From assembly GCA_028554795.2 (NCBI GenBank), contig CM068830.1:43695837-43759836 (forward strand): DNA of 64,000 nucleotides. The letters run 5' to 3'. Position 1 is the first letter of the stretch. Every line of letters starts with the position of its first letter. Origin of the DNA: Sinohyriopsis cumingii. Lineage: Eukaryota; Mollusca; Bivalvia; Unionida; Unionidae. Shown one piece after another: positions 1,012 through 49,821 of the stretch. Below the pieces are notes generated by a model, which saw nothing but the letters and a program-made list of their open reading frames with translations, did no database searches and was not told the origin of the DNA. Position numbers and translations under genes: made by a program.

Positions 1012-1119
1012 CTTGAATGAGATTTTAGTGGTCAGTGTATGTCCATGGTAGATAATGGGCAGTCCATCATCTCCATCCCAGCAGTCTAGCTCCACACATC
1101 GACATCCCCTTAGAAGCAC
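1012..1119 (-). CDS. PLCE1: PLC-epsilon-like gene, exon n: PLC X domain, calcium site and second His
   Basis: 108-nt exon, phase 0/0, acceptor attgccacag|GTGCTTCTA, donor TTCAAG|gtagga. It encodes [16 protein letters not shown] followed by [20 protein letters not shown]. The Glu and Asp of VELDCWDG are calcium ligands, and the His of HGHTLT is the second catalytic His (H356 of PLC-delta1). All are intact, so the enzyme is predicted to hydrolyse phosphoinositides. The next exon (EVVEAI-type in PLCE1) is not found between here and position 1 and must lie outside the window. Confidence 0.97.
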
Positions 1120-3758: not shown

Positions 3759-3863
3759 CTGACTATAGAGCTCTACTGAAGACTCTCCTTTCAACTGGTG
3801 ACCAGTCAGATAGGTGTTGTGGGAGGAAGCAATGTAGTAGTGAGCCAGAGGGTGATCCATATC
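3759..3863 (-). CDS. PLCE1: PLC-epsilon-like gene, exon m: PLC X domain start, catalytic His
   Basis: 105-nt exon, phase 0/0, acceptor ttgacag|GATATGGAT, donor AGTCAG|gtaacc. It encodes [19 protein letters not shown] followed by [16 protein letters not shown]. The SSHN motif holds the first catalytic His and the Asn calcium ligand, equivalent to H311 and N312 of rat PLC-delta1. [15 protein letters not shown] is nearly identical to PLCE1, and LKGESSVE is more typical of PLC-epsilon than of the beta, gamma or delta classes. Confidence 0.97.
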
Positions 3864-4046: not shown

Positions 4047-4169
4047 CTCATCATTCAGTCTTGTTTTCTCAAACACATATGCGTAGTTATCCTTGTCCAT
4101 CAGATATCTGGCAAATCCCTCAAATGAAAGACAGCATTTTTCTCTCAGACTGGAGTCAGGTTCATGTCG
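4047..4169 (-). CDS. PLCE1: PLC-epsilon-like gene, exon l: end of EF lobe, lead-in to X domain
   Basis: 123-nt exon with no long ORF, phase 0/0, acceptor tatttcag|CGACATGAA, donor GATGAG|gtagtg-type (gttagt). The translation is RHEPDSSLREKCCLSFEGFA followed by RYLMDKDNYAYVFEKTR and LNDE. The motif LSFEGFARYLMDKDN is the standard PLC signature before the X domain; PLCE1 has MSFEGFARFLMDKEN. Confidence 0.94.
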
Positions 4170-4964: not shown

Positions 4965-5191
4965 ATGAATAAGGGCGATAATTTCATTGTCTTCTAAATG
5001 TTCTTCCTGGTAGTCCTCTAAAAACTCCCGGAATTCAATCAGTCCCAGACATTTGCTCTGAACTGTGTCCACTCCTGCACAATTCTCAAATATACTGGAT
5101 GTGGCTATAGCATCACAGATCTTACGTCTCTGAAGATACTGATTGTCATTTGAATGTGTCAAATCAAACATATTGTTTCTAGTGAGTGTGC
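4965..5191 (-). CDS. PLCE1: PLC-epsilon-like gene, exon k: EF-hand lobe
   Basis: 227-nt exon, phase 1 to 0, acceptor tttttcag|GCACACTC, donor ATTCAT|gttagt. It encodes LQRRKICDAIATSSIFENC, then LGLIEFREFLEDYQEEHLED and NEIIALIH. PLCE1 has RQISDAIAAASIV, LNDFLVNCQGEHCTYDEI and LSIIQ at the same places. It reads on past the donor for ~20 codons before a stop, but homology ends exactly at the donor. Confidence 0.93.
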
Positions 5192-7960: not shown

Positions 7961-8411
7961 TTCCATCCTTGAATGTTGAAGGTGAGACTTGTTGATTTGC
8001 CTTGATTTGCTTGTCGGTATTTGGTTTAGAAACTGCAAACTGTTCAAACAAATCCCTCAAGTCCTTTCTACACCGTAGTGAAAATGATTTGAACAAGTCC
8101 ACAAAGTCCAAGAAAGACAAGTGGGTGGAATGAGTGATAGAACTAGTTTTATCTCCAGAACGAGAACATAATGACATTCGGTGACGTATCTGGTATCGAT
8201 TGAGGTAACTTGTAACAGTCTGACTACGAAGACGATGGATATTGGATGAGCCCCCTTGAACAAGTGAATGTCCTGAGAGCTGTGAATCACTTGCGTTGGA
8301 CTGGGAGCGACTGGCTCCTGGAATAGGCTTTGCTTGAGGACTGGGTGATCGTTTCTTTTGGCCTGAAGATTTGTTTTGAATAGTTGTGGAAGAGTTCCTT
8401 GGACTATTTTC
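7961..8411 (-). CDS. PLCE1: PLC-epsilon-like gene, exon j: Ser-rich linker and first EF-hand-like helices
   Basis: 451-nt exon, phase 0 to 1, acceptor ttcgtag|GAAAATAGT, donor GATGGAA|gtaagt. The first ~90 residues are low-complexity Ser/Gln/Pro (KKRSPSPQAKPIPGASRSQS). The second part, HLSFLDFVDLFKSFSLRCRK followed by DLRDLFEQFA, closely matches PLCE1's SFVEFVELFKSFSVRSRK, the helical start of the EF-hand lobe. EF loops with a full set of Ca ligands are not visible, which is usual for PLCs where this lobe is structural. Confidence 0.93.
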
Positions 8412-8684: not shown

Positions 8685-10735
8685 ATTCTTTAAAATGGGT
8701 AAAGGATGTTGATATTTTTTATTCTTTAAAATGGGTACAGGAAATTGATACTTTTTATTCTTTAAAATGGGTACAGGATGTCAAGTTGTATTTATTCTTT
8801 AAAATGGGTAAAGATGTTGGTTATTAATTTAAAATGGGTACAGGATGTTATATCTACTATTCTTTAAAATGGGTACAGGATGTTATATCTACTATTCTTT
8901 AAAATGGGTACAGGATGTTGTATCTAATATTCTTTAAAATGGGTACAGGACGTTATATCTACTATTCTTTAAAATGGGTACAGGATGTTATATCTACTAT
9001 TCTTTAAAATGGGTACAGGATGTTATATCTACTATTCTTTAAAATGGGTACAGGATGTTATATCTACTATTCTTTAAAATGGGTACAGGATGTTATATCT
9101 ACTATTCTTTAAAATGGGTACAGGATGTTATATCTACTATTCTTTAAAATGGGTACAGGATGTTATATCTACTATTCTTTAAAATGGGTACAGGATGTTA
9201 TATCTACTATTCTTTAAAATGGGTACAGGATGTTATATCTACTATTCTTTAAAATGGGTACAGGATGTTATATCTACTATTCTTTAAAATGGGTACAGGA
9301 TGTTATATCTACTATTATTTAAAATGGGTACAGGATGTTGATATCTATTATTCTTTAAAATGGGTACAGGATGTTGATATCTATTATTCTTTAAAATGGG
9401 TACAGAATGTTGAATTGTATTTTATCCTTTAAAATGGGTACAGGATGTTGAATTGTATTTTATCCTTTAAAATGGGTAAAGGATGTTGAGTTGTATTTTA
9501 TTCTTTAAAATGGGTGCAGGAAATTGATATTTTTTATTCTTCAAAGTGGGTACAGGATGTCATTCTGTAGTTATTCTTTAAAATGGGTAAAGATGTTGAG
9601 TTATTACTTTAAAATGGGTACAGGATGTTATATCTATTATTCTTTAAAATGGGTACAGAATGTTGAATTGTATTTTATTCTTTATAATGGGTAAAGGATG
9701 TTGATATTTTTGTATTCTTTAAAATGGGTAAAGGATATTGAGATTTCTGTATTCTTTAAAATGGGTAAAGGATGTTGAGATTTTTGTATTCTTTAAAATG
9801 GGTAAAGGATGTTGAGATTTTTGTATTCTTTAAAATGGGTAAAGGATGTTGAGATTTTTGTATTCCTTAAAATGGGTAAAGGATGCTGAGATTTCTGTAT
9901 TCTTTAAAATGGGTAAAGGATGTTGAGTTTCTTTATTCTTTAACATGGGTAAAGATACTGCGTCGTTTAATTCTATAAATTGGGTAGTGGATGTTGAATT
10001 TTTTTATTCTTTAAAGTGGGTGAAGGATGATGTGTTTTTTTAAATAGGCAAAGGATTATTTGTTCTTTAAAATGGGCAGAGGATGTTTTTTTTATCCTTT
10101 AAAATAGGCAAAGGATGTTTTTTTACTTTTTAAATAGGTAGAGCTAGAGGATGTTTTTATTCTTTAAAATAGGTAAAGGATGTTTTTATTCTTTAAAATA
10201 GGTAAAGGATGTTTTTTCTTCTTCTTTATAATAGGTAGAGGGTGATTTTATTCTTTAAAATAGCTAGAGAAGTTTTTATTCTTTAAAATATGTAGAGGAT
10301 GTTTTTTATTCTTTCAAATAGGCAAAGGATAGTTGTTTTTTTTTAAATAGTAGAGGATGTTTTTATTCCCTAAAATAGGTAGCGGCCATTTTTATTCTTT
10401 AAAATAGGCAAAGGAAGTTTTTATTCTTTAAAATAGGCAAAGGATGTTTTTATTCTTTAAAATATGTAGAGGATCTTTTTTTCTTCTTCAAAATGGGTAA
10501 AGGGTATTTTCTATTCTTTAAAATAGGTAATGGATGTTTAATATTTTTTTTAATATGTAAAGGGTGTTTTTATTCTTGAAAATAGGTAAAGGATGTTTTT
10601 ATTCTTGAAAATAGGTAATGGATGATTTTATCTATAAAAAAAATATAGGTAAAGGATGTTATTTATTCTTTAAAACAGGTTATTTATTCTTTAAAACAGG
10701 TAAAGGATGTTATTTATTCTTGATAATAGTGTCAC
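8685..10735. repeat. 35-bp minisatellite with degenerate flanks
   Basis: The core at about 8830-9340 is nearly perfect: ATTCTTTAAAATGGGTACAG followed by GATGTTATATCTACT, period 35. Outward, units drift to AAAATGGGTAAAGGATGTTG and then AAAATAGGTAAAGGATGTTT with periods of about 26-34. It lies in the intron between exons i and j. The strand has a strong asymmetry (G-runs on the plus strand, few C). Confidence 0.95.
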
Positions 10736-19647: not shown

Positions 19648-20389
19648 CTTGATGGCTTCAGCAGGGGTTGGTCCCTGGCATCTCTCTTCTTCATAGTACA
19701 ACTGTAGATATTGAACTTTTAGCCAATGAAGTCTTCTGTCAGTCTGAGAACGAAGCTTCCGAGCTGCCTCTGCCAACTTTTTTAATCCATGATACCATAT
19801 ATTAGCTACATTAGATAATCCAATAAAATACAATTTTTTATTCTCTGAAATGGTCATCCCATATGTCAAACATATACAAAGATGTTCGACTTGTGAATCT
19901 TCAAATCCATGTCGTTTGGCTGTAGATATATCCATGTCCTCCGTTGAGCACACATGAACATCTTTTATGATGGTAACATCCATATAACCGTCCTCGAGAG
20001 ACTCTGATACTAGCTCACCTGTTGTGTATTTTACACACAATGTCTGTATAGAACTGTAATCAAAGTCTCCACGAAGAACATAGTCAGGTAAATTAGCGCT
20101 ATTTCCTTTTAGAGAGCTCCAGTTTGGCTTTTTCCATGTTAAGGTTGCATTGTCAACCTCTAGTCTGACAAAGCACAAACAAGAACGTCCGCCATCTTCC
20201 TCCCAGTGTATGACCGTACTACCATGATGCATACACTGCAGGAAATGATGGTTCAGTTTGGCCAGTTTTGGTGTAATTATCATCACTTCTTGTTCATTGA
20301 ATAATGGCCTAATTGGCTGGTAGGAATCTAGGTCAAGGTCATAATCACTTTCACTAGAGTCACTGGTCTCATCCATGGAATGTAAAAAC
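19648..20389 (-). CDS. PLCE1: PLC-epsilon-like gene, exon h: PH-like region
   Basis: The largest exon: 742 nt, phase 2 to 0, acceptor ttttgcag|GTTTTTAC, donor ATCAAG|gtacct. It opens with an acidic Ser/Asp-rich stretch (SDSSESDYDLDLDSYQP). It then shows HHFLQCMHHGSTVIHW, SCLCFVRLEVDNATLTWKK and a C-terminal helix WLKVQYLQLYYEEERCQ followed by GPTPAEAIK. The same blocks occur in order in vertebrate PLCE1 ([44 protein letters not shown]) in the region assigned to the PH domain that follows RasGEF. The acidic stretch resembles the acidic linker there. No break is seen. Confidence 0.94.
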
Positions 20390-23608: not shown

Positions 23609-26600
23609 GGACTCACGGTACTAATTCCACTCCAATGGTAAACATATGGAAACACTGTCATATTCAAAATTCAATAACTTAAAATTTATGGGTGCTGATA
23701 ATGACACCTATAATTTTTCGTGCACATCTAACCTTGGTGCAAGCTTATGTGTGGAGAACACCATATGACCCGCGGCAATTTGTTTACATACATGTGCATG
23801 AAACACGTGTTATTGATTCTGCACCAAATGAATCAGGTGCTACTTTCAGTATTGAGTACTCCTGAGTCAAGCCTGTAAAAATGCTAAAATTGCATCAGTA
23901 GAAATTTGTCAATATTTTTTTTACATTACATATAGGACAAGCTCTCAAAAGATATTTTTCCTAAAATTTTAATTTTCATTATTAACCAATTAAGGACCAC
24001 CAAACCTGTAAATACTCTATCATTTCTTCACCCATTTCTAGACTGGTTCACAGTTCTTCCGTATAATTAGTACCGTGTGTCCTATAACCAGATTTAATTT
24101 TTTTTGAAAAAGTTGTATTTTACTCCTTGATATTAGAGCATAATTGTAAGAAAGAATTGGCCATGCTTGTGCATGGATAATAGTGCAATAGCATTTTATG
24201 TGATACCAATATCTATAGTTAAATTGCATCCGCATCACATGTTGCTGTGTTGTATTGTACTTATTAATGGCTTATTCTTGTTATTAAAATAATTGTTTTC
24301 TGCCTTTGTATCTTCATGTTATCTTTCTATAGCATGCATGCTACACAAAAGAAACACAAGCATGCTGACATCAGTATGACATCACAGGGTATCAAATTAC
24401 ATGACGCATTGTATTTTCATCTCTCACTGGCTATAAGACAAGTTTTAAATGTTTTAAATTTCAAAATTGCATTTCTTTTCTTGCTGACTCTCACAGAAAT
24501 AAGATACAGTGCATCCCTATTCACATCAATCAAACAAAACAAATAAGTGTGCCACATGACAGGTCAAAATGATAAGAGGCCATTGCCCTTTTGTGACTAA
24601 AACATATACACACACCCATGAAACATCAAGAGATGCTGACATTCCAAACTTATTTAAACTATCATCACATGTGATTCATGACCCCCAAATGTTAATAAAA
24701 AGGTATAAAAGCCAAGGAAGAGTTCCATAAGCTTTATTATACTGAATAATTAAATAACATAGTGCTACTTTTTAGTATAAAACTATGGGGAAGGGTGAAT
24801 AAGCAAAGAATAGACAGAGTAATTTCTTCAAGCCTGGTAATGTTCCCCACAACGGGGGTGGGGTGGGAGGAATGTGTATCAACCCAAATAACATATCAGC
24901 ATGAGGTATGTTACATAAGGACAGCAAGAGACAAATTTGAAAAAGCTATCCAAAGTTCCTATAATTCTGACATTGATGTTGGAGACAGAAAGTGTATGCA
25001 CAAACTGTTATGACTCAAGCTATTAAGTATGCTGGAGGTGGAGAAATGTGTGAAAAACTTTGCTATGCCAAGACAAGTTCATGTCTCTATGCAATATGCA
25101 GACACTGATAAAAATTGTCACTGAATACACTACTTGTTAAATTTAAGTAATAGAATTGAATTGCATATTGAAGTTGTCTAATACATAAATATATACCTAC
25201 ATTTACCCAAAGCTCATAAAAAGTTAAGAAAAAGTCTCAAAATCATTACTGTGGCTACTTTCCACTATAAGCAGTGTTAAATTACTTACTTTTTAATATA
25301 AAGCTGAAAATATGCATACATTATTGAACAAAAGAGAAACAAAGCAAACATTGCAATCACTCAATTACAGTCAAAGGGGAGGTAATACACCTTGATTTGG
25401 CAAACCAAATAGCAAGCTCTAATTTACAGCTAAATGATTCCTTACTATTACTTGATGGTAAGAACAGAGCAATGTAGGTTTAATAAATAGCTTTTGTTTC
25501 AAATATGAAACCATATTTCTGACATGAAGCTTGTTTTCATTTATTCACAACAACATATATGGTGAACAAAACCCATATCACTTAGTGCACGCAGTAATCA
25601 AATGCTGAGATTTGGAATAATGTGTTCTGAGACCACAAGTTGCAACACCCTGAGTATAAAGGTTTTCTATCATGGGACTTGGTACATGAAGAAAAAAGAG
25701 ATCTGGTTTGGTGGGAGAGAGCAGTATGTTCACCATGCAGTTATACATCAAGAATGTTTCAACTGTATGAAGGGAGGTTGGGGAAGAAAAACTGCCTGTG
25801 TAAAGAATGCAACACAGATAGGACTTTTGCAGACTTATATTGGGAATGAAGGGTTGAAAACTATTATTTTAAGTGAAAATGTCCCTCCCTGCTCCCTCAG
25901 CAAAAGGAATGCAGAAAAGTTCCAATACTGTTTGCCCAAAAATGTAATGTACCAATATGAGAAACATGCTGAACATAGAATAGGTGTCAAGGAGTTTAAT
26001 TCTAGGATAAGAAATAAGACCGGTATAATTGATATTCAATGTGACTCGACATATAATAATTCAATTTACAGGTTGAGGCAATGCAGCATGTGCAGTTTTG
26101 TGCACAGTCCTTATTTTTACAATGTTCTCTGCTTTGATCTGCTGAGTGTGTCTCTAAAGTTAAATGATCAGTACTGATACATAAGTGATTGTGACATAAG
26201 TGGCTTACATATAAAATCTACCCCACCCCACCCCATTTTGGGGAATTATTGCATGTGTTAAATGGTATTTAACCATACAGGCCAATCTATGGGTACCATC
26301 ATATGAAATTCTGCCATCAGGCCATACTGTGCTCTTTTCCCTATGGCCTGAGCTATCTACTTCCACTCTCCAGTGTATAAAACCATCCCCATCTGTCTTT
26401 TGTATGGAATTTTTCTCCAAAATCACATGCAAACCATGATAAAAAGACTCCATTATCACTGTCATATGTAAAAACCACCAAATCGATACCCTGGATGCAC
26501 GTGGTAACCATGGAAACAACAAGCTCCTATTATGGTATAGGTCGCATATAGGACTCACGGTACTAATTCCACTCCAATGGTAAACATATGGAAACACTGT

Positions 26601-27024
26601 CATATTCAAAATTCAATAACTTAAAATTTATGGGTGCTGATAATGACACCTATAATTTTTCGTGCACATCTAACCTTGGTGCAAGCTTATGTGTGGAGAA
26701 CACCATATGACCCGCGGCAATTTGTTTACATACATGTGCATGAAACACGTGTTATTGATTCTGCACCAAATGAATCAGGTGCTACTTTCAGTATTGAGTA
26801 CTCCTGAGTCAAGCCTGTAAAAATGCTAAAATTGCATCAGTAGAAATTTGTCAATATTTTTTTTACATTACATATAGGACAAGCTCTCAAAAGATATTTT
26901 TCCTAAAATTTTAATTTTCATTATTAACCAATTAAGGACCACCAAACCTGTAAATACTCTATCATTTCTTCACCCATTTCTAGACTGGTTCACAGTTCTT
27001 CCGTATAATTAGTACCGTGTGTCC
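23609..27024. mobile_element. Element with 474-bp direct terminal repeats inserted in a satellite
   Basis: Direct repeats 23609-24082 and 26551-27024 have equal length and look identical by eye. Each starts GGACTCACGGTACTAATT and ends AATTAGTACCGTGTGTCC, an 18-bp inverted pair with one mismatch. The outer flanks are TGTA on both sides (23605-23608 and 27025-27028). Removing the element plus one TGTA restores a perfect unit of the host 28-bp array. The 2.47-kb interior has no recognised gene. Diverged single units of the repeat occur at 52548-53151 and 51430-51615, like solo LTRs. It is LTR-like in layout but has unusual termini. Confidence 0.75.
25602..26177 (+). CDS. Uncharacterised 191-codon frame inside the 474-bp-repeat element
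   Basis: An open frame with many Cys residues, overlapped by a second plus frame (25640-25849) that reads LSWDLVHEEKRDLVWWERAV and CLCKECNTDRTFADLYW. The second frame looks more protein-like than the longer one. I do not recognise either. If anything was coded here, it is probably a decayed gene of the element with a frameshift near 25845. Confidence 0.2.
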   Translation: MLRFGIMCSETTSCNTLSIKVFYHGTWYMKKKEIWFGGREQYVHHAVIHQECFNCMKGGWGRKTACVKNATQIGLLQTYIGNEGLKTIILSENVPPCSLSKRNAEKFQYCLPKNVMYQYEKHAEHRIGVKEFNSRIRNKTGIIDIQCDSTYNNSIYRLRQCSMCSFVHSPYFYNVLCFDLLSVSLKLNDQY

Positions 27025-27663: not shown

Positions 27664-27839
27664 CCTTCATCTTTTGTCTTTATCTGTTCTGACATTTGCT
27701 CTTGCTTTCCATTGTGGTGTTGAAAGAGGTGAATGTCATTCAGTATCACATGGGCCTGCCTCAACTTTGCAATGTTCATCAAGCCGCCAACCCCAATCCT
27801 GGTCATGAAGCGATCTTCACCATTATAGTCAGATATACA
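27664..27839 (-). CDS. PLCE1: PLC-epsilon-like gene, exon g: end of RasGEF domain
   Basis: 176-nt exon, phases 0 to 2. Acceptor is tttttag|TGTATATCT and donor is GATGAAGG|gtataa. It encodes CISDYNGEDRFMTRIGVGGL, then NIAKLRQAHVILNDIHLFQ, which is the last RasGEF helix. PLCE1 has the corresponding ADYSGQDNFLQRVG. The donor was chosen because it is the only one giving the phase-2 end that the next exon needs and because the reading after it loses homology. Confidence 0.88.
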
Positions 27840-33227: not shown

Positions 33228-33477
33228 CTCAAGTGTTCCATTTTCATCGGAAGGCAGAACAACAATACTTGGAATGCACATAAACACAGTCCTCAAGTCA
33301 CGAAGAAATCCACCAAAGAATGGTATCACTTTGCATTCTGGGATTTCCAGGGCAGCACTGATGGCATCACGGTACTCAGGTGTGGGTTCCCTGGACAACA
33401 ATGCATTGGACAGCATATGTAGGGTGGACAAGTCTTCTTCTGACAGGGACAGCCAAAATGGCTTTAACTTCTCTGAC
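33228..33477 (-). CDS. PLCE1: PLC-epsilon-like gene, exon f: RasGEF domain, catalytic hairpin region
   Basis: 250-nt exon, phases 2 to 0. Acceptor is gcttttag|GTCAGAG and donor is CTTGAG|gtatat. It encodes SEKLKPFWLSLSEED, then PTPEYRDAISAALEIPECK and VIPFFGGFLRDL. The Pro-Phe-x-Gly-x-x-Leu-x-(D/E)-Leu block is the conserved RasGEF motif just before the helical hairpin; PLCE1 has VVPFCGVFLKEL there. It ends in NGTLE, which leads into the next exon as PLCE1's EETLE leads into FVADYSG. Confidence 0.94.
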
Positions 33478-34586: not shown

Positions 34587-34732
34587 TTGAGTCCAGCCAG
34601 TATTTCCATGGCAGAGTTGAAGTTGCCGATACACCAGCAGTAGTGGGCCAGGCGAAGAATACAAGACAGTATGGCTTTCCTGTTGTCGTGGGTAGGCTGT
34701 GTGATGATAAGCTGGGTGATCCATGTGCTTAC
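34587..34732 (-). CDS. PLCE1: PLC-epsilon-like gene, exon e: RasGEF domain, middle
   Basis: 146-nt exon with no long ORF. Acceptor is tccttcag|GTAAGCACATGG, donor is GGACTCAA|gtaatt, phases 0 to 2. The translation reads VSTWITQLIITQP, then AILSCILRLAHYCWCIGNF and NSAMEILAGLK. It corresponds to the conserved RasGEF block that in PLCE1 has VSSWVTWLI, then [20 protein letters not shown]. It continues RFNE|VSTW from the previous exon without a gap and gives codon AAG (K) at the next junction. Confidence 0.93.
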
Positions 34733-38235: not shown

Positions 38236-38492
38236 CTCATTAAACCGTTGAACTAAGTCCTCTACACCTGACATTTTACTGTTGACCACACTTCCTCGGG
38301 ATAGATCCATGGTGATTTGGCGAATGTAGTCAGCTGGAAGCACATTCTGAAAAAGCTTGCACTCAGTCTTAGTAAGAAGATGGGCCACTTCCTCTGGAAA
38401 ATGGAGCAATTTCTGAAGATTTTCAAGCTCCTTGGCATAGCGGGAGCAGCCTTCCACATCTGGACACAGTGTCAACTGCTTACGCTGAAAAT
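38236..38492 (-). CDS. PLCE1: PLC-epsilon-like gene, exon d: start of RasGEF (CDC25) domain
   Basis: 257-nt exon, entering in phase 1 (tttatag|ATTTTCAGCG) and leaving in phase 0 (AATGAG|gtataa). It encodes LLHFPEEVAHLL, LFQNVLPADYIRQIT and VEDLVQRFNE. These follow the start of the RasGEF domain in vertebrate PLCE1, which has FPEEVA, VLPVDY and LEDLVMRFNE at the same spacing. The phase-1 junction with the FERM F3 exon is the evidence that FERM and RasGEF belong to one polypeptide. The intron side of the donor lies only a few bases from the 3' tail of a CR1-like retroelement. Confidence 0.93.
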
Positions 38493-39419
38493 CTATAAAA
38501 GAAGAAAAATAATGCACATCATTTCAACAAACAGAACTCACTCCAACCTAAGACATCATAATCAAAAAAAATGTTCATTACAGTTCTTAATGCCAGAAAA
38601 AATTATATAACTGTGTTCTAAAAGACAAGTACATTTCTGGATAATTTATGATAGCTGGAAAATTTTCAAGCTTACATGCTTCAGACAGAAATGCTGTACT
38701 GTAAATTATAGTTTCCTACATACATTATAGACTGTAACATGAAAATTTCAAGTGACTGGCATTTAAAAGAACTGGCAGAAAACTAAGACTTTCTTCAATA
38801 GACTTCGTTTCATTCATTTATGCACTCTTTTCAGTCAAACGATGACTTGAATAATAAATCTGCAAACAAATTCACATTGTGAATCTATGGTCTTGGATCT
38901 CCCATTAAGGCCATGTGAAAAGACTAAATAGCATAGTGGTTTCTTCAAGCCATCTTTTTCTCCAAAAGCACTGCACCAAATCACCGAGACATTGTCACAG
39001 CGCAAGTTGCTAGAACTATGAAATCAAGGATATGTAAATAAAAAGATATTTCTCAAAACATATATCCCAATGCCAACTGTGCTTTTCAAGGTAAGTAAAA
39101 ATTAGGCTCTCATACACGTCACTAGATATATAATGAATTACAAAATGAATCTCTTAAATTCAAACATCATTCAAGTGGCTAAGTTTTGGTAATGTCAATT
39201 TACTCTTCTTGCAATGCAGCCACATGTCACTTTTTATAAGCTTAAGTGAAACAGCATGCAAGATTTGAAGGGTGTTATGAACATGTAACAAATGAACATA
39301 CCACAAAAACAAACACACAAATGAACAAACAGGCAAAAAGAATGCTGCCAGATCACCTCATCACAAGGAAGGGGATAACAGAGGGAAAAATTAAATCTGA
39401 AAACATAAAAGCAACTTAC
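38493..39419. other. Intron between exons c and d, nothing recognised
   Basis: No element ends or supported frames. This intron joins the FERM and RasGEF parts and is 927 bp long. Confidence 0.5.
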
Positions 39420-39705
39420 CAAATTCAAAGCTATCTCGTCTTAGTGTCCCATTACTGAGAAATCGTCCATCCATATCCAAAGCATCCCAGAGTACAGCAG
39501 TCACAGACTTCAGGTTGTCCAGTGATGCCATGGACAATGTCCAAGTCTTGGTCCCACGGAACTCCAACACCAGGCCATCATGCAACTTGCCACTTCCTGT
39601 CCGCCACTCATCAAGGTCCCGGATACTTTGCGTCTTGGTCAAAAGTTTGGTCTTGCTGTCCAGCAGGATGACTTTGTCATTTGTGATACCTAGCAGGCGA
39701 GACAC
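39420..39705 (-). CDS. PLCE1: PLC-epsilon-like gene, exon c: FERM lobe F3 (PTB-like)
   Basis: 286-nt internal exon, entering in phase 0 (cacag|GTGTCTCGC) and leaving in phase 1 (GAATTTG|gtaagt). It begins VSRLLGITNDKVILLDSKT and continues through SIRDLDEWRTG and LHDGLVLEFRGTKTWTL to LKSVTAVLWDAL. This is the strand order and final helix of the talin F3 (PTB/PH-like) lobe. The Trp of DEWRTG aligns with the Trp that talin F3 uses in integrin-tail binding. Its final residues, RDSFEF, run straight into the RasGEF exon. F3 lobes bind NPxY-type tails or phosphoinositides; which this one binds cannot be read from sequence. Confidence 0.85.
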
Positions 39706-39856
39706 CTGTGAAATTGGAGGAAAAACTTGCTAAGTGTTGAATTATTAAATATATTTTATGACTTACCTTTAAAAAAAAAAACACATAAAAAGTATGGAAA
39801 CTGTAAGATTAGGTGGATTAATTGATTAATCAACACTAATAGTGGCACTGCTGCAT

Positions 39857-40110
39857 GTGTTGTTGTTGTTTTAGGGTTTAATGCCATTTTTCAACACAAG
39901 ATAGGCTATACATGGCAGCCAATATAAATGGTGGAGGAAGAACCCAGGAAAACCAAAGAAAGAACCACTGACCCACAAGAAGCTATTGACAAGCTTTCTC
40001 ATGTACCCACATTTGCTAAGCCTGAGACTTGAACCCACACAGGCAGAGGAGAGATGGCAGTGATCCATAACGGTGAGCGCTTTAGACCACCCGGCCACTC
40101 AGGGCCTCCA
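39857..40110 (-). mobile_element. tRNA-derived SINE, family A (best-preserved head)
   Basis: On the minus strand the right end reads GAGTGGCCGGGTGGTCTAAA, GCGCTCACCGTTATGG and then GTGGGTTCAAGTCTCAGG. Box A (TGGCCGGGTGGTCTAA) and box B (GGTTCAAGTCTC) resemble a tRNA-Leu/Ser head. The body ends GGGTTTAATGCC next to (GTT)n. Confidence 0.92.
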
Positions 40111-40486
40111 CTGCTGCCTGAAATGTTCAATTTTTAATTACTTTTTTCAATTGTAACTAAATCATTGATTGATCTACTGAATGATTTTTGTACTAAGGCA
40201 TCTGAACCAAATGAAGGTAATTTGGTGTCATCTGCCTTGGAAAGCTTTTATACAATAAACAGCACCATGAAAAGCACCTTTTCTGGCAAATATCTAAAAT
40301 ATAATCAATATAACACAATATCTCAGTGTACTATTGGCAGTAAATATAAATTTCTTTCTTGGAAAAATGTATAGTTTAAAAATAAACTTGGATATGTATT
40401 TTCAATTTCAAACAAAACATCTTTCATGGCAAAAATAGGCCTATCACAATTTCCAGAAAAGATACAGCAAATTCCTAACAATTTAG

Positions 40487-40617
<131 letters not shown>

Positions 40618-41099
40618 GTTAAAGCAATTATAAGGTAATCTAGCATTACTCTTTTTATAAAATAATTTTGTATATAGGTCGTACTAATATGGTACCAATA
40701 CCAATCTCCAAGTCATTATGAAGAACTATAAAGAAAAGCACAGTCCAACTGCACATAGATCCTGATCTGCATGTGCATTATGATACGGTAGATAAGGTTC
40801 TGTGTTACAAATGAAAAGGTTTTTAGCTTGCTCTGGATAATTCATGATCCTTAGTAATTTCCCATACTCAGAGCATAAATATCTTAAAAGTTCAAAATTT
40901 TTTGCAATATCACACTGCCTTCATGGGTGACTACCGTTGGTCACTTGACCTGCAATGCACTAAACAGGGATGAGGGGCTTGAATTACCACCCATCTACAC
41001 TAGTCTCCTTGTATCACGTTACCATTAGATGTCACATGATAAATGTTAGTCGTTCATGTGATATTGCCAAAAATGTCTAACTTTTTAAGATACTTATGC

Positions 41100-41240
41100 T
41101 CTGAGTATGGGAAATTACAAATGACCTAGACCTGTGTTGCTGTGGTTTGACTCAACTTATAAGTGAGTATGGGAAATTACAAATGACCTAGACCTGTGTT
41201 GCTGTGGTTTGACTCAACTTATAAGTGAGTATATACAGTA
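41100..41240. repeat. 62-bp tandem duplication next to exon b donor
   Basis: GAGTATGGGAAATTACAAAT, then GACCTAGACCTGTGTTGCTG and TGGTTTGACTCAACTTATAA, occurs twice in direct order. It carries the CTTATAAGTGAGTAT motif of the GATCTG repeat and ends 9 bp before the donor. Confidence 0.92.
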
Positions 41241-41248
41241 TAACATAC

Positions 41249-41398
41249 CTTTTTCTGTGTATTGCTTCTCAGCATCTCCTTGACCTGATACAACTTACAG
41301 CCATAGGCAGGCAGGTTTTTACAGATTCGGATGTACAGCTCCTTTAACTTTATTTCATTGTCATAGTATGGGGTGTGCCACAGTTTCTTCTTTTTCTC
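41249..41398 (-). CDS. PLCE1: PLC-epsilon-like gene, exon b: FERM lobe F2 (end)
   Basis: Internal exon of 50 codons, phase 0/0. The acceptor is TATCTAG before GAGAAAAAG and the donor is AAAAAG|gtatgt. The translation contains KLWHTPYYDNEIKLKELY followed by LPAYGCKLYQVKE. It matches the last two F2 helices of talin, where the equivalent signature is SLKTYGVSFFLVKEK. Joined to the previous exon it completes a four-helix F2 lobe. It joins in frame to the F3 exon at ...NTQKK|VSRLLGI, and talin has RLLGI at the same boundary. No unusual codons or breaks are seen. Confidence 0.86.
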
Positions 41399-41639
41399 CT
41401 AGATAAGACAAATGTAGAATCAGATTAGAAAAGAAGCTCGGCAAACAGTCTACATACTTAATAATAATTTTCACACTTTAAACAATAAAATGCAAATCAT
41501 CTATTAGACTACGTAAAAGTGAATGACTTTGAATAATGAAGTTATCCTGATATTCAGAAAATGAATATAGACCTGAACAAAGCATCAGTAAGAACTGCTG
41601 AACGTCATTGTGGGAAATAAATCATACTGATAATAATTA

Positions 41640-42118
41640 ATGTGTTCATTCTGGGTAATAAGTGTAACCCATAATAATTAATGAGTTCATTGCTAATATC
41701 ATTCTGAGTAATGAGAGTTACCCTTAATAATTAATGTGTTCATTGTTGAATGACATTCCAGGTAATATCTAAGTGTAACCCATAATAATTAATGTGGTCA
41801 TTACTGAATGGCATTCTGGGTAATAAGTGTAACCAATAATAATTAATGACTTCATTGCTAATAACATTCTGAGTAATGAGAGTTACCCTTAATAATGAAT
41901 GTGTTCATTGCTGAATGGCATTCTGGGTAATAAGTGTAACCCATAATAATTAATGTGGTCATTACTGAATGGCATTCTGGGTAATAAGTGTTAACCATAA
42001 TAATTAATGAGTTCATTGCTAATAGCATTCTGAGTAATGAGAGTTACCCTTAATAATTAATGTGTTCATTGCTGAATGGCATTCTGGGTAATAAGTGTAA
42101 CCCATAATAATGAGTTCA
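41640..42118. repeat. 54-bp minisatellite, left part
   Basis: Units of ATTAATGTGTTCATTGCTGA, ATGGCATTCTGGGTAATAAG and TGTAACCCATAATA (54 bp), alternating with a variant carrying GAGTTCATTGCTAATAGCAT and GAGTAATGAGAGTTACCCTT. The array resumes at 46365. Confidence 0.93.
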
Positions 42119-43079
42119 TTGATTTGTTGTTGAGTTTAATTATAGTGGCGTGCGCACAATTGTGCATGTGCCACTTTTTTCTGACTGCACTGCAGCCTGC
42201 TAGTTGTTCCTGGGGAAGGGAATGGTGCCACCTCCCCCAGGCTTTTATGGGTTCAAGGAACCCTGATAGATTGGCCTCAATCTGTGGGTCCATAAAGGTC
42301 CCTTACAGTTGAATGGTTGGCTGTCATTAGTGGGAAGGAGAGCTCAGGAATGGTCCTGGTTGCTTCACATCGCTGGTTTCTTGTTGCATTTGCCTGGTGT
42401 TTCTTGTTTTTTTTCCAAAATGTTCTAAAAAGGAGGGGTGTCCTATGCTGTTTATACAGGTTGTTAGTAGAAATCATGTATGAAGAGAGATTTTCAAGCT
42501 TATTATGGTATTACTAGTCGAGGTGTTTAGGGTGTGCTTCGTATGTTATGTTATTTATAAGTTTTTAGATATTATCTCTTTAAGTTATTTATTTATTAAT
42601 GTTTTTAGAAACTGAATGTTATTTATACTTTATTTAGCAAGAGACTGGAGTCCTAGCCAATTACACGGTTCATTAAGGACATCTAGGACCGGAGTCCTAG
42701 CCGATTACATGGTTCGTTAAGGACATCTAGGACATCCAATTTTGCGGTTTCCTTAGTTTTTGATAGGTGCTTCGTAAGTGAATTATTTATTAATATTTTT
42801 ATAAAATTGAATGATATGTTATGGGTTTTTATGTGGGGGCTTCAAAATTTATTTAGCTAGTTATTGGGTCTTTTGGTTTTGTGGGGACAGTAATTATATT
42901 TTGTTCCTAAGTCCTGCTGAATCTATGAATTTATTTATATTTTTATATGCTGATTGTTTATTTTTATTAGAGTCCATAAGTAACTCTGGGTATGTGTGTG
43001 GTGATCCAATCTCTTTTTGGTTTTTGATAAATATTTTCCTAGCAGGTTAATATTTTGGGCATATATTGAATACATGGTG

Positions 43080-43720
43080 TAGATCTTCGGTGGTGTGGCA
43101 GTTAATGGTTGCTGGTTTGGGTCCTATAAACCTTCCAAAACTACTTGCTAGTTAAGTTTTTCCAGTTATTATCCTGTTTATGGTTTTCTGTTCTAAATAG
43201 GTACCCTTAGGTAGCTGTATATTCCTATCTACGGTTTTTTGAGTTTCATGGTGCTTTGTACCTTTTGTGGAGGAGTTCCAAAAATCTTGCCATTTTTGGT
43301 CTATATATGTTTGTGCAAAGCTTAGTGCTTCTGTAGAGCTATAGTTAAGCTTGATAGAGTTTTGATCTCCTAGTTTGGTTTGTGCAACTTTGTCTGCTGT
43401 TTCGTTGCCAGAGATTCCAATGTGTGACGGTATCCACATGAGATCGACTAACTGATGTGCTGTGGTGATATCGTCAATTAATTGGCATGCTCTGTTGAGG
43501 AATTGTTCCCTAGAGTGTGTATTGCGATTTTGGATTGATTTGATAATGCTTAGGGAATCACTTATAATGACTGCTTTAGGTATTTTGTTGTCTTTGATCC
43601 ATTGAAATGATTCAAGTATAGCCCAGAATTCAGTGGTGTAAATGGAGCAATAGTCAGGTAATCTGGATCCCCTTTGTATACTGAATTCAGGGATGACTAT
43701 TGCTGCTGCTGTTCTTGGTG
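43080..43720 (-). pseudogene. RNase H domain and Cys/His tail of the same element
   Basis: CSIYTTEFWAILESFQWI, AVIISDSLSIIKSI and MWIPSHIGISGNETADKVA carry the RNase H acidic residues and the final His/Asp. NCHTTEDLHHVFNIC follows. Confidence 0.85.
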
Positions 43721-44229
43721 GGTTGTTTGTTTTTGATCCATCGGTATATATTTTAACATAGTCCAGGTATGTTTGGTTGATTTCGTTTACCAGTACAGGT
43801 TTTAGTAAGTTTTCTTGTCCTTCTTTATTGCCTAATTTGGTAGCTTCAGGGTTAATCCTTGGTGGGTTTTGTAAACATGGTGATTTGTTCTGGTCTGTAT
43901 TGTAGAGGTATCTTTTCTCTTAGTTCAAGGATTACTTTGCCACTTGGTGTGGTGGGTATGATTTTGGGTTTGAAGACAACTTTACACTTGTTTATAGCTA
44001 TTTTGGTGGGATGGTTGTCTGGGTGGGTATCTAATCAAATGGAGTATCGGAGGAGCAGTTCTTGCCTACGTAATTTTAAGGGTAGTTCTCCTGTTAGTGT
44101 TTGTAGTTCTTCTAATGATGTTGAGGGGAGTGTTCCTGTGCATAATAGCAGGGCTTTTCTCTGGATAGTGTCAAGTTTTTGTGGTACAGGATGCTTAGCC
44201 GAGTTATATGCTTGGCAACCATAATCCAG

Positions 44230-45020
44230 TTTTGATCTAATTAGGGTTTTATATATCGTGAAAAGGGTTTCCTGGTTGGATCCCCAGTAAGTCCCTGTGA
44301 TGTTCCTGAGTAAATTGAGATCTTTGTTACAATTCTGGGTGAGTTTGCTTAATGTGCTGTTTCCATGTGAGGTGGTTGTCAAAGAACATTCCTAGGAATT
44401 TTACTACTGTTACGTATTTGATTAATTGATTTTGTATATAGAAGTTTGGATAGACTAGGTTGTTATTTTGTTTGGGGGTAAATATGATTGCCACAGTTTT
44501 TTCATGAGATTTTTTGAAACCCCATTTGTCCGTCCATCTCCCTATGTTGTCTAGGCTCTGCTGGATTTCTTTAACTACTGTTTTATTGGCAGGATTTCCA
44601 TTCCTCCATATGCCACTATCATCTGCAAATTGTGACAAGTTTATTTTTGTGGAGGCTGCATTGAGGTCAAGGTCATTTACCATTAGGTTAAATAGTAGGG
44701 GACTTATTACACTGTCTTGCGGTGTTCCATTTTCAAGTGAAAATTCTTCTGAATGGGTGTTGCCTATTCTTGTGGTAATTTTCCGGCCTGTGAAGAAATC
44801 GCCAATCCAGTTAAACAAGTGTCCAGTTATTCCAAATTGGTTTAATTTGGCCATTAGTCCATTGGTCCATACTAGGTCGAACACTTTTTCTAGGTCTAGA
44901 AAAACTACTATGAGGTTACGATTGGTTCTCCTATGTGCGTTAAAAGCAAGTTTGATGTGTTTCCAATCTGAGAAGTTGGTCAGTGGTGGACCGTTTGTTC
45001 CGAAAGCCACATTGATTTAT
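44230..45020 (-). pseudogene. Reverse transcriptase of the same element, frameshifted
   Basis: The open stretch has VVFLDLEKVFDLVWTNGLM (RT motif A), NGTPQDSVISPLLFNLMVND (motif B) and LSQFADDSGIW (FADD box, the catalytic aspartates). It shifts frame near 44330 into SKLTQNCNKDLNLLRNITG and LIRSKLDYGCQAYNSA. The RT part is well preserved, but the gene is broken. Confidence 0.9.
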
Positions 45021-45574
45021 GGAGAGTAGGTTATTGGTTTCTAGGTGGTGTTTTAACCTATTTGCGATTATTGTCTCCATTATTTTGCAAATATTGTTTG
45101 TAAGGGAGATGGGTCAGTACGAATTTATGTTGTTGGGATCTTTACCTAGCTTGGGGATTGGTATTACTATGGCCTGTTTCCATTTGGTGGGTAGTTGGCC
45201 TTTATCCCATATCCTATTAAAGAGTTTGATTATGGCTATTGTTATATTGATAGGTAGTTTTTTTATAGATAATGTAACCTAACTGATCCTTACCAGGGGA
45301 TGTTTCGTTTTTGGATCATAGGGCTATCTCCCATTCATGTACTGTGATGTCACTATTATGGCTTTTATCTTGTCCTATATTTGTTTTGAGTTTGATTTTA
45401 GCCTCAGTTTAGAGCAAAAGGTTTGCCATAGATTAATTTTAGCAGTTTTTATTGTTTGTTTTATTGCTTTTTCTTTATCTTTATATTGCTGGAAGTAGAT
45501 AGAATTTTTGGTACGTTTATGTTTATTTAAGGCCCTTTTTTGTCTTTATGTGCTATAGTGCACTGTTTAGTCCA

Positions 45575-46290
45575 TCATGGTACAGGGTTTTTATTTTGGA
45601 TATTAGTTGTCTTTGGAATGCATCGGTTAGCTTCCTCTATAATTGTGTCTGTTATGTTATCATAATACATGTCAATATTTGGGCTTTCTAAGTTATGTGG
45701 ATTTACTCTAGCTAGTAATAATTGGAATTGGTCCCAGTCTGCCTGTTGGTACCTCCATTTAGGTGGAGTTTCATTTGGAATGTGTTGAGTTTTTGTCTGA
45801 ATACTGATTGTGATGGGGAAATGGTCACTTCCTAACGTTTCTTCTTGATCCACCCACCAATTTGTGATTTGAGCCAATTTTGGGGTAGTGATGGTTAGGT
45901 CTATGGCTGAGAGAGTGCCATCCTCAGGGTTTAATCTAGTGTTCAACCCGTCATTTAAGATGACCAGATTGTTCTCAGTTATCCATTTTTCAACCATTTT
46001 CCCTCTTTGATCTTTCTATTTACCTCCCCATAATTCACTGTGTGCATTGAAGTCACCACAGATAATTAGATTGTTGTTGTTGTTATTAGTGATTTCCCTT
46101 AGTGAGATTAGGTTGGTAGGGCAGAAGGTACCCCCTGGGTCGTATGCATTTATTATTTGAATGTTTGTTATTCCTCTATTTATCATTACTGACATTATTT
46201 CGGTGCTATTATTGATGTTTAGGTTGGGGGTACTTCTATTATTTCATAGTAGATTAGTGTATCTATCAAAAAAATTGCTAGTCCACCCCC
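45575..46290 (-). pseudogene. Retrotransposon endonuclease (APE type), decayed
   Basis: GDFNAHSELWGG, TRLNPEDGTLSAIDLTI and GSDHFPITI are the standard APE-endonuclease motifs, including the catalytic Asp and the SDH triad. They lie in different frames and a stop separates GDFNAHS from the following block. Confidence 0.82.
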
Positions 46291-46364
46291 TTTCTGCCCT
46301 TTGGGTCTGTTTTTAAAGATTCCATGGGTATAGCCTTGTAGTTTGGGCAGGCGTTTGTGTTCTG

Positions 46365-48000
46365 AGTAATGAGAGTTCCCCTTAATAATTAATGTGTTCA
46401 CTGCTGAATGGCATTCTGGGTAATAAGTGTAACCCATAATAATAAATGAGTTCATTGCTGAATGGCATTCTGGGTAATAAGTGTAACCCATAATAATAAA
46501 TGAGTTCATTGCTAATAGCATTCTTAGTAATGAGAGTTGCCCTTAATAATTAATGTGTTCATTGCTGGATGGTATTCTGGGCAATAAGTGTTAACCATAA
46601 TAATTAATGTGTTCATTGCTGGATGGCATTCTGGGTAATAAGTGTAACCCATAATAATTAATGTGTTCATTACTGAATGGCATTCAGGGTAATAAGTGTA
46701 ACCCAGAATAATTAATGTGTTCATTGCTGACTGGCATTCTGGGTAATAAGTGTAACCCATAATAATTAATGAGTTCATTGCTAATAGCATTATGAGTAAT
46801 GAGAGTTACCCTTAATAATTAATGCGTTCATTGCTGAATGGCAGTCTCGGAAATAAGTATAACCCATAATAATTAATGTGTTCATTGCTGAATGGCTTTC
46901 TGGGTAATAGGTGTAACCCATAGTAATAAATGAGTTCATTGCTAATAGCATTCTCAGTAATGAGAGTTATCCTTAATAATTAATGTGTTCATTTCTGAAT
47001 GGCATTCTGGGCAATAAGTGTTAACCATAATAATTAACGTGTTCATTGCTGAATGGCATTCTGGGCAGTAAGTGTAACCCATAATAATTAATGTGTTCAT
47101 TGCTGAATGGCATTCTGGGCAATAAGTGTTAACCATAATAATTAATGTGTTCATTGCTGGATGGCATTCTGGGTAATAAGTGTAACCCATAATAATTAAT
47201 GTGTTCATTACTGAATGGCATTCAGGGTAATAAGTGTAACCCAGAATAATTAATGTGTTCATTGTTGACTGGCATTCTGGGTAATAAGTGTAACCCATAA
47301 TAATTAATGAGTTCATTGCTAATAGCATTATGAGTAATGAGAGTTACCCTTAATAATTAATGCGTTCATTGCTGAATGGCAGTCTGGGAAATAAGTATAA
47401 CCCATAATAATTAATGTGTTCATTGCTGAATGACTTTCTGGGTAATAAGTGTAAACCATAGTAATAAATGAGTTCATTGCTAATAGCATTCTCAGTAATG
47501 AGAGTTATCCTTAATAATTAATGTGTTCATTTCTGAATGGCATTCTGGGCAATAAGTGTTAACCATAATAATTAACGTGTTCATTGCTGAATGGCATTCT
47601 GGGCAGTAAGTGTAACCCATAATAATTAATGTGTTCATTGCTGAATGGCATTCTGGGCAATAAGTGTTAACCATAATAATTAATGTGTTCATTGCTGAAT
47701 GGCATTCTGGGTAATAAGTGTAACCCATAATAATTAATGAGTTCATTGCTGAATAGCAATCTGGGCAATAAGTGTTAACCTTAATAATTGTGTTCATTGC
47801 TGAATGGCATTCTGGGCAATAAGTGTAACCCATAATAATTAATGTATTCATTGCTGAATGGCATTCTGGGCAATAAGTGTTAGCCTTAATAATTAATGTG
47901 TTCGTTGCTGAATGGCATTCTGGGCAATAAGTGTTTACCATAATAATTAATGTGGTCATTACTGAATGGCATTCTGGGCAGTAAGTGTTAACCATAAGTA
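46365..48000. repeat. 54-bp minisatellite, right part, with higher-order units
   Basis: About 30 units. A block of roughly 538 bp is repeated (for example 46505-46790 and 47043-47328). 54 is divisible by 3, so 18-residue repeat frames appear on the minus strand (MNTLIIMGYTYYPECHSA); they are not genes. Confidence 0.95.
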
Positions 48001-48756
48001 TCAGTGTTTTTAAAGCCAGTTATGGCAACATTTCTAGATTAATTATAATACAATGCAGATCAACTTCAAACGATTGCTACAATGCAACCAACACTTGCAC
48101 TAGTCAGAGATCAAAACACAGCTGATATTTAATTAGGTTGTCTGAGAAATGCTCACACACATTCCTCAGTCAAATGACATTTTTCACAATTGAGTACAGG
48201 AGGGCATATCACATTTATGATGATTACACTGAAACCAAACAAGGAAGATAAAAAACATGAATTTCAATTTAGAAAATTGATTTATTTATTTTTAAGTTTT
48301 GCCACCATTAGGCATTGCTAAATTTCAAAAAGATCAAAATTTTGTCATATTTTATTATTTACAGTGTACTCAGAATTTTTTAATATATAAATCTTTACAA
48401 AATATAACACTTCAAAGTAAAAGTTGCAAATGCCATGATGCTATTTGTCTAGGGACTAACTGCCATTTTCAAAAATATAAAATGAGTTATATATCAAAGT
48501 TTCAATACCAGTTTTGATTGCACTTCTATTCTTGCTGTCAACAAAAAAGGGACCTTAATTGTGGCATTTACCATAAGCAAAAAAGGATTCACACCTGCCT
48601 CCACATTATAATTGGATCCACGAGTTATCCGGCAATGTTATTACAAGAAAGAACTGTACACGATGGGACAATGACTCATTTATTTGTATTGACATGTGCT
48701 AATAAGGATGATTTTGCCATAAATTGCTATAAAACAAATTGTACCATCATATGGTA
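48001..48756. other. Intronic sequence, nothing recognised
   Basis: Two random plus frames of 72 and 79 codons have no family resemblance. Confidence 0.4.
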
Positions 48757-49072
48757 GACCACTCCAATGGCCTTGTGATTACAACATCTGCCTCGGAAAT
48801 AAGAGGTCACGGGTTCATACCCCCGATACATTATACCAAAGACTTATAAAAACAGTACTAGCAGTTGCCTCGCTTGGCACTCAGCTTTAAGTTGTTAGTG
48901 CTTGGATAGGTCAGCCTGGTGTCAGGATAATGTGACTGGGTGGGACATGATGCTACATGTCTGCGGCATGATGCCACTGTGCTAGACATTGCAATAAACT
49001 GTCAGACTGCAGATATCATAGCGATATGACTGAAATTTTTTTAAAGCTACATTAAAAATTCAAATCTCTGTC
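48757..49072 (+). mobile_element. tRNA-derived SINE, family B
   Basis: The head reads GACCACTCCAATGGCCTTGT, GATTACAACATCTGCCTCGG and GGTCACGGGTTCATACCCCC, followed by body ACCAAAGACTTATAAAAACA, CAGGATAATGTGACTGGGTG and GGGACATGATGCTACATGTC. It ends AAAGCTACATTAAAAATTC. Confidence 0.9.
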
Positions 49073-49419
49073 ACACACACATCGGATGGATGTTTTCTCA
49101 ATTCTACGTTTCTAAATATCTGCAAATTCTTGATTTATTGAGTGACAAAAATCTGTAATGTTGGGGTGAGGGGTGGCTGGGGAGGGGGATATAATAAAAA
49201 CTCCTTCTAAAGGTACTGCATTGAAAGAAATGTCCAACAATTTAAAAAATAACTCCAAAAACGACTATGTCTAATAAATAATCTACTACTGTGAATGTTA
49301 TACTGTACTTTAAATTTATGTCATACAACAGGACTTCTGCAGTTCAAACTTCTGGTACCTGATGAGACCTAAGTTGTTTTCCACGCTGAAGAGTATCAAG
49401 AAGCATATTTAGGACTAAC

Positions 49420-49821
49420 CTGTATTAACTGTCGCACCTTTTTGGATGTTGTGTAATGGGGAGGCAGGAAGCGGGCAAGATCCGGGTCTGGGGCTGTGTC
49501 AGTGTCATGGTCACTGACACATGATAACTGCCGAACAAGACGACCTGTCCTTCGACTCCGGGCAATTTTCCAAGCTTGTTTGTTACTAATGAGCTCTTTT
49601 TTCTTTCTGAGATTCTCCCTTTTATCCACTTCTGTTGTTTTATGTCTTTTGCCTGTGTCACCCATCTTTCTGTTCAGGAGTGAAAATTGTTCTCTTGGTC
49701 CATTGTGATTGGTCAGACCTTCCTCAGGCCATGCCTCTTCAATGTGAAGTTGAATACCTGCAAACGTGGCTGCTTCCTCTTTTGAACATGGCAGCTCCCC
49801 ATTTAGTATAAGCTCTTTAAG
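49420..49821 (-). CDS. PLCE1: PLC-epsilon-like gene, exon a: FERM lobe F2 (first part) with basic insert
   Basis: Internal exon of 134 codons, phase 0 at both ends. The acceptor is TTTCAG before CTTAAAGAG and the donor is CAG|gttagt. The first ~30 residues (ILNGELPCSKEEAATFAG onward) match the opening helices of the F2 lobe of talin/kindlin FERM domains. The last ~25 (FLPPHYTTSKKVRQLIQ) match the later F2 segment, which in talin has the form LKEFLPKEYI. Between them lies an insert of about 75 residues rich in Lys/Arg (KRENLRKKK, then ARSRRTGRLVRQLS) followed by an acidic DHDTD stretch. Kindlins carry an insert (a PH domain) at the same place. An ATG lies just 5' of the acceptor, so a first exon is formally possible, but a FERM without F1 and the good acceptor argue for upstream exons. 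Confidence 0.82.

Follow-up and report, generated by a model that had tools for sequence, protein, structure and literature searches.

A PLC-epsilon gene of the bivalve Sinohyriopsis cumingii with a predicted talin-like FERM F2-F3 segment in its exchange-factor half

Here, we describe a PLC-epsilon locus of the bivalve mollusc Sinohyriopsis cumingii, found in a stretch of 64,000 nucleotides (the window) at positions 43,695,837 to 43,759,836 of contig CM068830.1 in assembly GCA_028554795.2 (C7:43695837-43759836 in the coordinates used below). An original prediction, made from the letters of the window, had proposed a PLC-epsilon orthologue in which a talin/kindlin-like FERM domain is fused upstream of the RasGEF (CDC25) domain. 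The computational analysis presented here makes it probable that the locus is a single PLC-epsilon gene with a talin-derived FERM F2-F3 segment in its exchange-factor half, most likely between a putative REM domain and the CDC25 domain. We infer that the exons join into one mRNA encoding one protein, and the most likely predicted order is putative REM, FERM F2-F3, CDC25, PH, EF hands, X-Y, a presumed C2, and RA1-RA2. At the level of sequence, there is good support for a novel order of domains within a family that is already known.

The gene lies on the minus strand and extends past both ends of the window. Its features inside the window, in window coordinates and in the direction of the gene, are as follows.

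49420..49821, minus strand: exon a, 134 amino acids, phase 0 at both ends, acceptor ttcag, donor gttagt; first half of F2, a basic insert and the continuation of F2 (FLPPHYTTSKKVRQLIQ)
49486..49719, minus strand: basic insert within F2, about 78 amino acids with approximate borders, from alignment to reference talin, which has no insert
41249..41398, minus strand: exon b, 50 amino acids, phase 0 at both ends, acceptor tctag, donor gtatgt; last part of F2 and opening strand of F3 (LPAYGCKLYQVKE)
39420..39705, minus strand: exon c, phase 0 to phase 1, acceptor cacag, donor gtaagt; remainder of F3 (VSRLLGITNDKVILLDSKTK to ALDMDG) and a linker
38236..38492, minus strand: exon d, phase 1 to phase 0, acceptor tatag, donor gtataa; linker and start of CDC25/RasGEF (FPEEVAHLL to VEDLVQRFNE)
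34587..34732, minus strand: exon e, phase 0 to phase 2; RasGEF catalytic core (VSTWITQLIITQ to LAGLK), 40% identical to reference human PLCE1
33228..33477, minus strand: exon f, phase 2 to phase 0; RasGEF continued (SEKLKPFWLSL to NGTLE), from the exon scan and the sequence
27765..27839, minus strand: start of exon g, region after CDC25 (CISDYNGEDRFMTRIG), 3' end not fixed; tblastn with reference PLCE1, E 0.004
19648..20389, minus strand: PH-domain exon, its borders set by the exon scan only; matched by reference PLCE1 in tblastn (E 2e-25) and by PLCE1 in the PDB
7961..8411, minus strand: exon of the EF-hand region (LSFLDFVDLFKSFSLRCRKDLRDLF), borders from the scan; tblastn E 1.8e-8
4968..5150, minus strand: matched stretch of the EF-hand region (RRKICDAIATSSIF to NEIIALI) without fixed exon borders; tblastn E 6e-5
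4047..4169, minus strand: EF-hand exon (CLSFEGFARYLMDKDNY) with scan-derived borders; tblastn E 4e-6
3759..3863, minus strand: start of the PI-PLC X domain, a PI-PLC-X profile match in the genome search
1012..1119, minus strand: PI-PLC X domain continued; tblastn E 6e-18 and genome profile search

The reference sequences for tblastn and alignment (human PLCE1, talin, SOS1 and the other REM domains) are provisional. The exon scan covered the minus strand over extended coordinates 1000-160000 only, the last 104 kb fetched lying outside it, and its best 60 non-overlapping candidates were considered. The exons used to train its codon table, exons a to c among them, were afterwards ranked by that table, and two of the training stretches were wrong (exon e was shifted out of frame by one base, and L016, a kindlin-like exon at another locus, was in antisense); the upstream exons described below were outside the training set. 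Of the peptides named in the original prediction, four longer ones (ILNGELPCS, LPAYGCKLYQVKE, RLLGITNDK and FPEEVAHLL) were searched for and are all on the minus strand, and the others fall within the exons read here. The proposed splicing of three F2/F3 exons in phases 0, 0 and 1 into the RasGEF exon agrees with the splice sites and phases.

The locus is identified as a genuine PLC-epsilon gene because its PH and X exons are closest to PLCE1 and because RasGEF, X, Y and RA matches follow in order, as the original prediction held for the downstream exons. In a PDB phmmer search, the PH and X exons match PLCE1 (9ax5/9b13) at 1.1e-62; of the remaining PLC classes, PLC-gamma comes closest (2.6e-32). 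In Pfam, the joined exons give PI-PLC X at 113.3 bits and EF-hand_like at 34.9 bits, exons d to g give RasGEF at 95.1 bits (profile positions 1-160 of 181), and the PH exon gives no row at E ≤ 0.1. The nearest solved structures to exons d to g are RalGPS1, Cdc25 and RasGRP2, and three CDC25 exons are 38-40% identical to reference human PLCE1. Below the window, the gene continues in the same orientation with a further X exon at C7:43694450, the X exons overall lying within C7:43694450-43699696. A Y exon follows on the minus strand at C7:43672246, and two RA matches on the minus strand stand in the expected place; the one at C7:43655713 has 28.5 bits (E 0.005) and the one at C7:43648043, barely above the cut-off of 21, has 21.9 bits (E 0.5). 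The FERM_M, RasGEF, EF, X, Y and RA matches are colinear and in a single orientation on one contig.

The spliced product of exons a to e (414 amino acids) matches both FERM_M (39.0 bits, E 1.2e-9, cut-off 23.8) and RasGEF (61.7 bits, E 1.1e-16, cut-off 23.1) in Pfam. Taken singly, exon a reaches 23.8 bits for FERM_M, which is exactly the cut-off, exon b matches the end of the profile at 15 bits, below the cut-off, and exon c gives no Pfam row above cut-off. The F3 lobe appears in Pfam only in rows below cut-off, PH_SLA1 at 17.1 bits and IRS/PTB at 14.4 bits. Talin-1 chains are the best PDB phmmer matches (1y19_B, E 1.6e-11), and the talin match extends to query residue 220. The likeness of F3 to talin F3 is judged not to be due to chance, as the local score against reference talin F3 is 98 and the best of 500 shuffles scores 53. 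The 51 PDB sequences at E ≤ 1 comprise, besides talin and RasGEF proteins, myosin VIIa/b, at E 0.03 to 0.08, and a single Fyn chain, at 0.98, with no kindlin chain among them. Of the two proteins in the talin/kindlin description, talin is the closer one by this match, and it is also the one with which introns are shared, as described below. The start of F2 alone is matched weakly throughout, by talin-1 (E 0.036), PTPN21 (0.21) and kindlin-2 (0.48). The F2 insert contains 19 K/R and 6 D/E in a 58-residue core (20 and 11 in an 81-residue stretch), and no Pfam domain was found in it. A second genomic copy of the FERM segment was considered and rejected, since the query gives three rows at E ≤ 1, all at this C7 locus.

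The retained residues bear on what the F2-F3 pair might bind. When mapped on reference talin, K274, R277, K316, K324, K343, K345 and W359 are kept and K320 is replaced by R, and the changes are K268 to P, K272 to T, K278 to Q, K318 to M, K322 to N, L325 to K, E342 to S, K357 to D and R358 to E; Y377 is not kept, and the last F3 strands are poorly aligned in this mapping. Three of the four residues that we take to form the PIP2 (phosphatidylinositol 4,5-bisphosphate) surface of talin are retained (K316, K324 and K343 of a set that includes K272), and one of the four presumed integrin contacts, R358, W359, L325 and Y377, is retained (W359). Membrane or PIP2 targeting thus appears likelier than integrin binding. 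Because the lipid-contact lysines are kept and the F2 insert is basic, the guess with most support is that the pair docks on acidic lipid; classical integrin binding is not favoured.

The original prediction had pointed to a direct link between adhesion receptors, Rap and the breakdown of PIP2. In this reading, F3 would bind integrin beta tails and so couple both enzymatic activities, on Rap and on PIP2, directly to integrins. Talin is the nearest match and W359, K316 and K324 are kept, and a nephrin-Nck2-PLC-epsilon1-Rap1 route to focal adhesions in podocytes, proposed and unconfirmed, is described in an excerpt of PMC12203975. The link is nevertheless weakened by the replacement of R358 by E and of L325 by K and by the loss of Y377 relative to reference talin, where the end of F3 is poorly aligned, and an integrin-coupled enzyme of this kind seems unlikely.

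Above the window, two further exons were recognised in a cut locus (L024, in its own coordinates). The first, L024:2432-783, is a 1650-nucleotide open exon with an ATG near its start (MEEMETDPQQ) that ends in phase 0; it appeared in the scan as two pieces, which were joined since the frame is open between them. The second, L024:268-203, has 66 nucleotides, ends in phase 0 and has NIHAQYKQ as its last residues, so that the reading into exon a continues as LKELILNGELPC and aligns without gaps to talin LNLLYVQARDDILNG. Adding both exons in phase 0 raises the FERM_M score from 39.0 to 45.7 bits and moves the start of the match from profile position 20 to 12; by this measure, the two exons complete the first F2 helix. 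Other upstream scan candidates rank equally or higher, namely an 852-nucleotide frame at 127563-126712, transposase-like by eye, and 97745-97572, repeat-like by eye.

The REM domain is the usual partner of CDC25. The end of the 1650-nucleotide exon (VLKVIETWVSVSHADLEGCVLVVQEMREFLRKL...KVWAQQI) scores 55 against the second half of the reference SOS1 REM domain, a score reached or exceeded by 0 of 2000 shuffles of the half and by 2 of 2000 of the whole exon. Among the other reference REM halves, 4 of 2000 shuffles reach the score for C3G, 31 for RasGRF1 and 32 for RASGEF1B (0 for SOS1). NCBIfam returned nothing for this exon. A REM domain before the FERM lobes is put forward here as a lead only. 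The FERM lobes may be better placed between a putative REM and CDC25 than upstream of RasGEF as originally worded. The reference human stretch N-terminal to CDC25 found no convincing match in the window and the 200 kb above it (best E 0.97), and in the whole genome it found one match, on another contig (E 0.7); the two N-termini look unrelated by sequence.

A single gene is favoured because the phases match across the FERM-RasGEF junction (phase 1 of exon c to phase 1 of exon d), because exon d lacks an in-frame start codon before CDC25, because the 927-nucleotide intron between the two exons contains no AATAAA or ATTAAA, and because the REM-like segment lies beyond the FERM lobes. In exon d, an in-frame stop lies upstream and no in-frame methionine occurs between this stop and FPEEV; exon d could therefore not serve as an initiator exon with an intact CDC25 domain.

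Several results weigh against the reading of one gene with functional talin-like FERM lobes behind a REM domain. Pfam gives no FERM_C row for the spliced 414-residue product or for the 986-residue model, and an AlphaFold2 single-sequence model of exon c alone has a mean predicted local distance difference test score (pLDDT) of 42.1, which is uninformative as to fold. The F1 lobe was not found, so that the original FERM assignment holds for F2 and F3: the 986-residue model has no FERM_N row at E ≤ 1, and none of 15 FERM_N genome matches at E ≤ 1 (best candidates only) lies on C7. A search with reference talin and loose patterns upstream of exon a also yielded no F1, although a very diverged one could escape them. 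An 84-kb intron divides the upstream exons from exon a. The reference EPAC2 REM half fails the shuffle test (534 of 2000, score 24, below the maximum of 30 reached by eight control stretches of the same protein), as does the first half of REM (721 of 2000), and Pfam and PDB phmmer are negative for REM (RasGEF_N), with one chance-level Pfam row (Rep_4, E 0.03). The talin residues K272, L325, R358 and Y377 are not kept. Finally, an excerpt of a 2026 review (PMC13022664) describes the PLC-epsilon N-terminus as conserved across eukaryotes, and the reference human stretch is unmatched here.

Three other readings of the exons were weighed. The FERM exons may belong to a minor isoform only, the main protein skipping them by another promoter or by splicing, which is doubtful. 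Exons a (402 nucleotides) and b (150 nucleotides) are multiples of three and could be skipped in frame, and mammalian PLCE1 isoforms are described as differing in exon 1 (PMC13022664, in part). Skipping exon c, or exons a to c together, would however put exon d out of frame (phase 0 meeting phase 1), and no alternative 5' exon for d was recognised among the best 60 scan candidates. It is quite improbable that the exons belong to two genes side by side, the first being a truncated, talin-like FERM gene with exon c as its last exon and the second a PLC-epsilon gene that begins close to exon d. Read-through at the exon c donor reaches a stop after 9 codons and would permit a FERM-only product, but the matched phases, the lack of a methionine before CDC25, the intron free of AATAAA and ATTAAA and the REM-like segment on the FERM side all speak against it. 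If the REM reading is right, the FERM lobes lie within the exchange factor, and separate genes become very unlikely. Least probable of all, a degenerate relic in which the FERM lobes no longer fold and serve as a linker only would suit the missing F1, the long F2 insert and the lack of a FERM_C match, but the splice sites and frames are intact and talin-like core motifs are retained throughout F2 and in the first half of F3. Exons a to c also have high coding scores, which carry little weight against such a relic since these exons were within the training set. A FERM pseudogene was rejected on the intact frames and splice sites.

The introns of the single PLC-epsilon gene favoured here also bear on the origin of its FERM lobes. 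In the same genome, talin head exons occur at three places on contig C8 (80549144-80580796, 81273229-81290007 and 81344037-81377099), two of them adjoining, so that three talin-like genes appear to be present. With a slash marking the intron, the first intron lies at LLFSQ/TRDAILNG or its equivalent in all three talin copies, in phase 0, and corresponds to HAQYKQ/LKELILNG here. The second corresponds to RQLIQ/EKKKKLW here, as one talin copy has an acceptor directly before EHKKWIG in phase 0 (acceptor side only). The third differs, being FFLVK/EKM in talin and QKK/VSRLLG here. For two of the three FERM-region introns, both position and phase are thus those found in talin of this genome. The first shared intron is absent from seven other FERM loci (L009-L014 and L016), where one open frame runs across the point; eight loci were read out of 18 FERM_M rows, the eighth, L015, covering the later part of F2 only. 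A rough count puts the chance of two coincident introns at about 2.3e-4, assuming five talin introns in 570 nucleotides (counted by hand) and even placement. Because the two introns coincide in position and phase, the evidence points to a talin-like source for the FERM lobes, with a common older source as the alternative.

Compared with talin F2-F3, the segment shares its sequence, the two intron positions and phases, and K316, K324, K343 and W359, but it differs in that no F0/F1 was found, in the basic F2 insert, in the changes of R358 to E and L325 to K, in the third intron and in its exchange factor-lipase carrier. In kindlins, the F2 insert is a PH domain. The kindlin FERM domain is alike in the F2-F3 order, in an insert in F2 and in the weak match of kindlin-2 to the start of F2, whereas the insert here is a basic stretch with no Pfam domain and the first shared intron is missing from L016, the exon of this genome that was named kindlin-like by eye. 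Should the REM reading be right, a parallel exists in exchange factors with an extra domain between REM and CDC25, such as Epac and PDZ-GEF. In these, the domain is RA, DEP or PDZ, and we know of no FERM domain in that position. Mammalian PLCE1 shares the CDC25/RasGEF, PH, EF-hand, X and Y matches and two candidate RA matches but is described, in excerpts of PMC13022664, without a FERM domain and with an N-terminus that, outside CDC25, is said to lack homologues; the statement in the original prediction that vertebrate PLCE1 has no FERM domain fits this account. The word FERM is not used in a paper on C. elegans plc-1 (PMC2274882, in part), which has no bearing on its absence there. In the literature searched, which covered few subscription papers, PLC-epsilon was nowhere found to be described with a FERM domain, and in the one paper containing both "PLC epsilon" and "FERM domain" (PMC4766154, in part) the FERM domain is that of ezrin.

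Repeats and mobile elements accompany the gene. The intron between exons a and b contains two arrays of one 54-base-pair minisatellite (window 41647-42111 and 46360-47997), and between them, at 43152-46243, are minus-strand frames that resemble, by eye, a retrotransposon without long terminal repeats (endonuclease, reverse transcriptase and RNase H). Long minisatellites with units of 42, 35 and 29 base pairs, at window 5900-7646 and 8683-10729, flank the EF-hand exon 7961-8411 within introns of the gene. Plus-strand open frames at 23683-23865 and 26625-26807 have an identical 60-residue translation about 2.9 kb apart, likely a recent direct duplication. The 84-kb intron contains the 852-nucleotide open frame already mentioned (L023, C7:43822548-43823399), transposase-like by eye. 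On contig C9, 13 of 26 RA-domain matches lie within 1.6 Mb (C9:111185345-112797541), 11 of them in open frames of 466-564 amino acids, which suggests a cluster of intronless RA-domain genes.

A tentative mechanism can be outlined. Talin F2-F3 docks on acidic, PIP2-rich membrane. The F2-F3 pair of the enzyme described here, together with its basic F2 insert, could dock in the same way and would bring the lipase site and CDC25 together on one membrane. Rap activated there by CDC25 would feed back on RA2 and drive PIP2 breakdown, which would deplete the docking lipid and so limit the signal. A receptor tail may assist docking via the F3 groove, and the FERM lobes may also keep REM and CDC25 apart until membrane contact. 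FERM-PIP2 binding has been described for FAK and for ezrin (PMC4766154, in excerpt). For mammalian PLC-epsilon, excerpts of PMC13022664 describe CDC25 and PH as predicted to create a membrane surface coplanar with the active site, and state that the N-terminus, with no known relatives, likely aids membrane binding. The CDC25 domain of PLC-epsilon is described as maintaining active Rap1 in endothelial cells (PMC5017709, in part).

Taken further, talin-derived F2-F3 lobes inserted between REM and CDC25 would turn PLC-epsilon into a self-contained sensor of adhesion membrane rich in PIP2, one that produces Rap-GTP and then destroys the lipid on which it docks. This architecture might be the ancestral one of animals, lost in vertebrates; in this full form, the proposal is rather unlikely. 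A talin-like membrane module at the N-terminus would nonetheless offer a testable model, in which the N-terminus serves to target the coupled activities, Rap exchange and breakdown of PIP2, to membrane or adhesion sites. If true, the locus would exemplify the movement of a talin-type FERM segment, introns included, into a signalling enzyme, on the very Rap pathway that controls talin.

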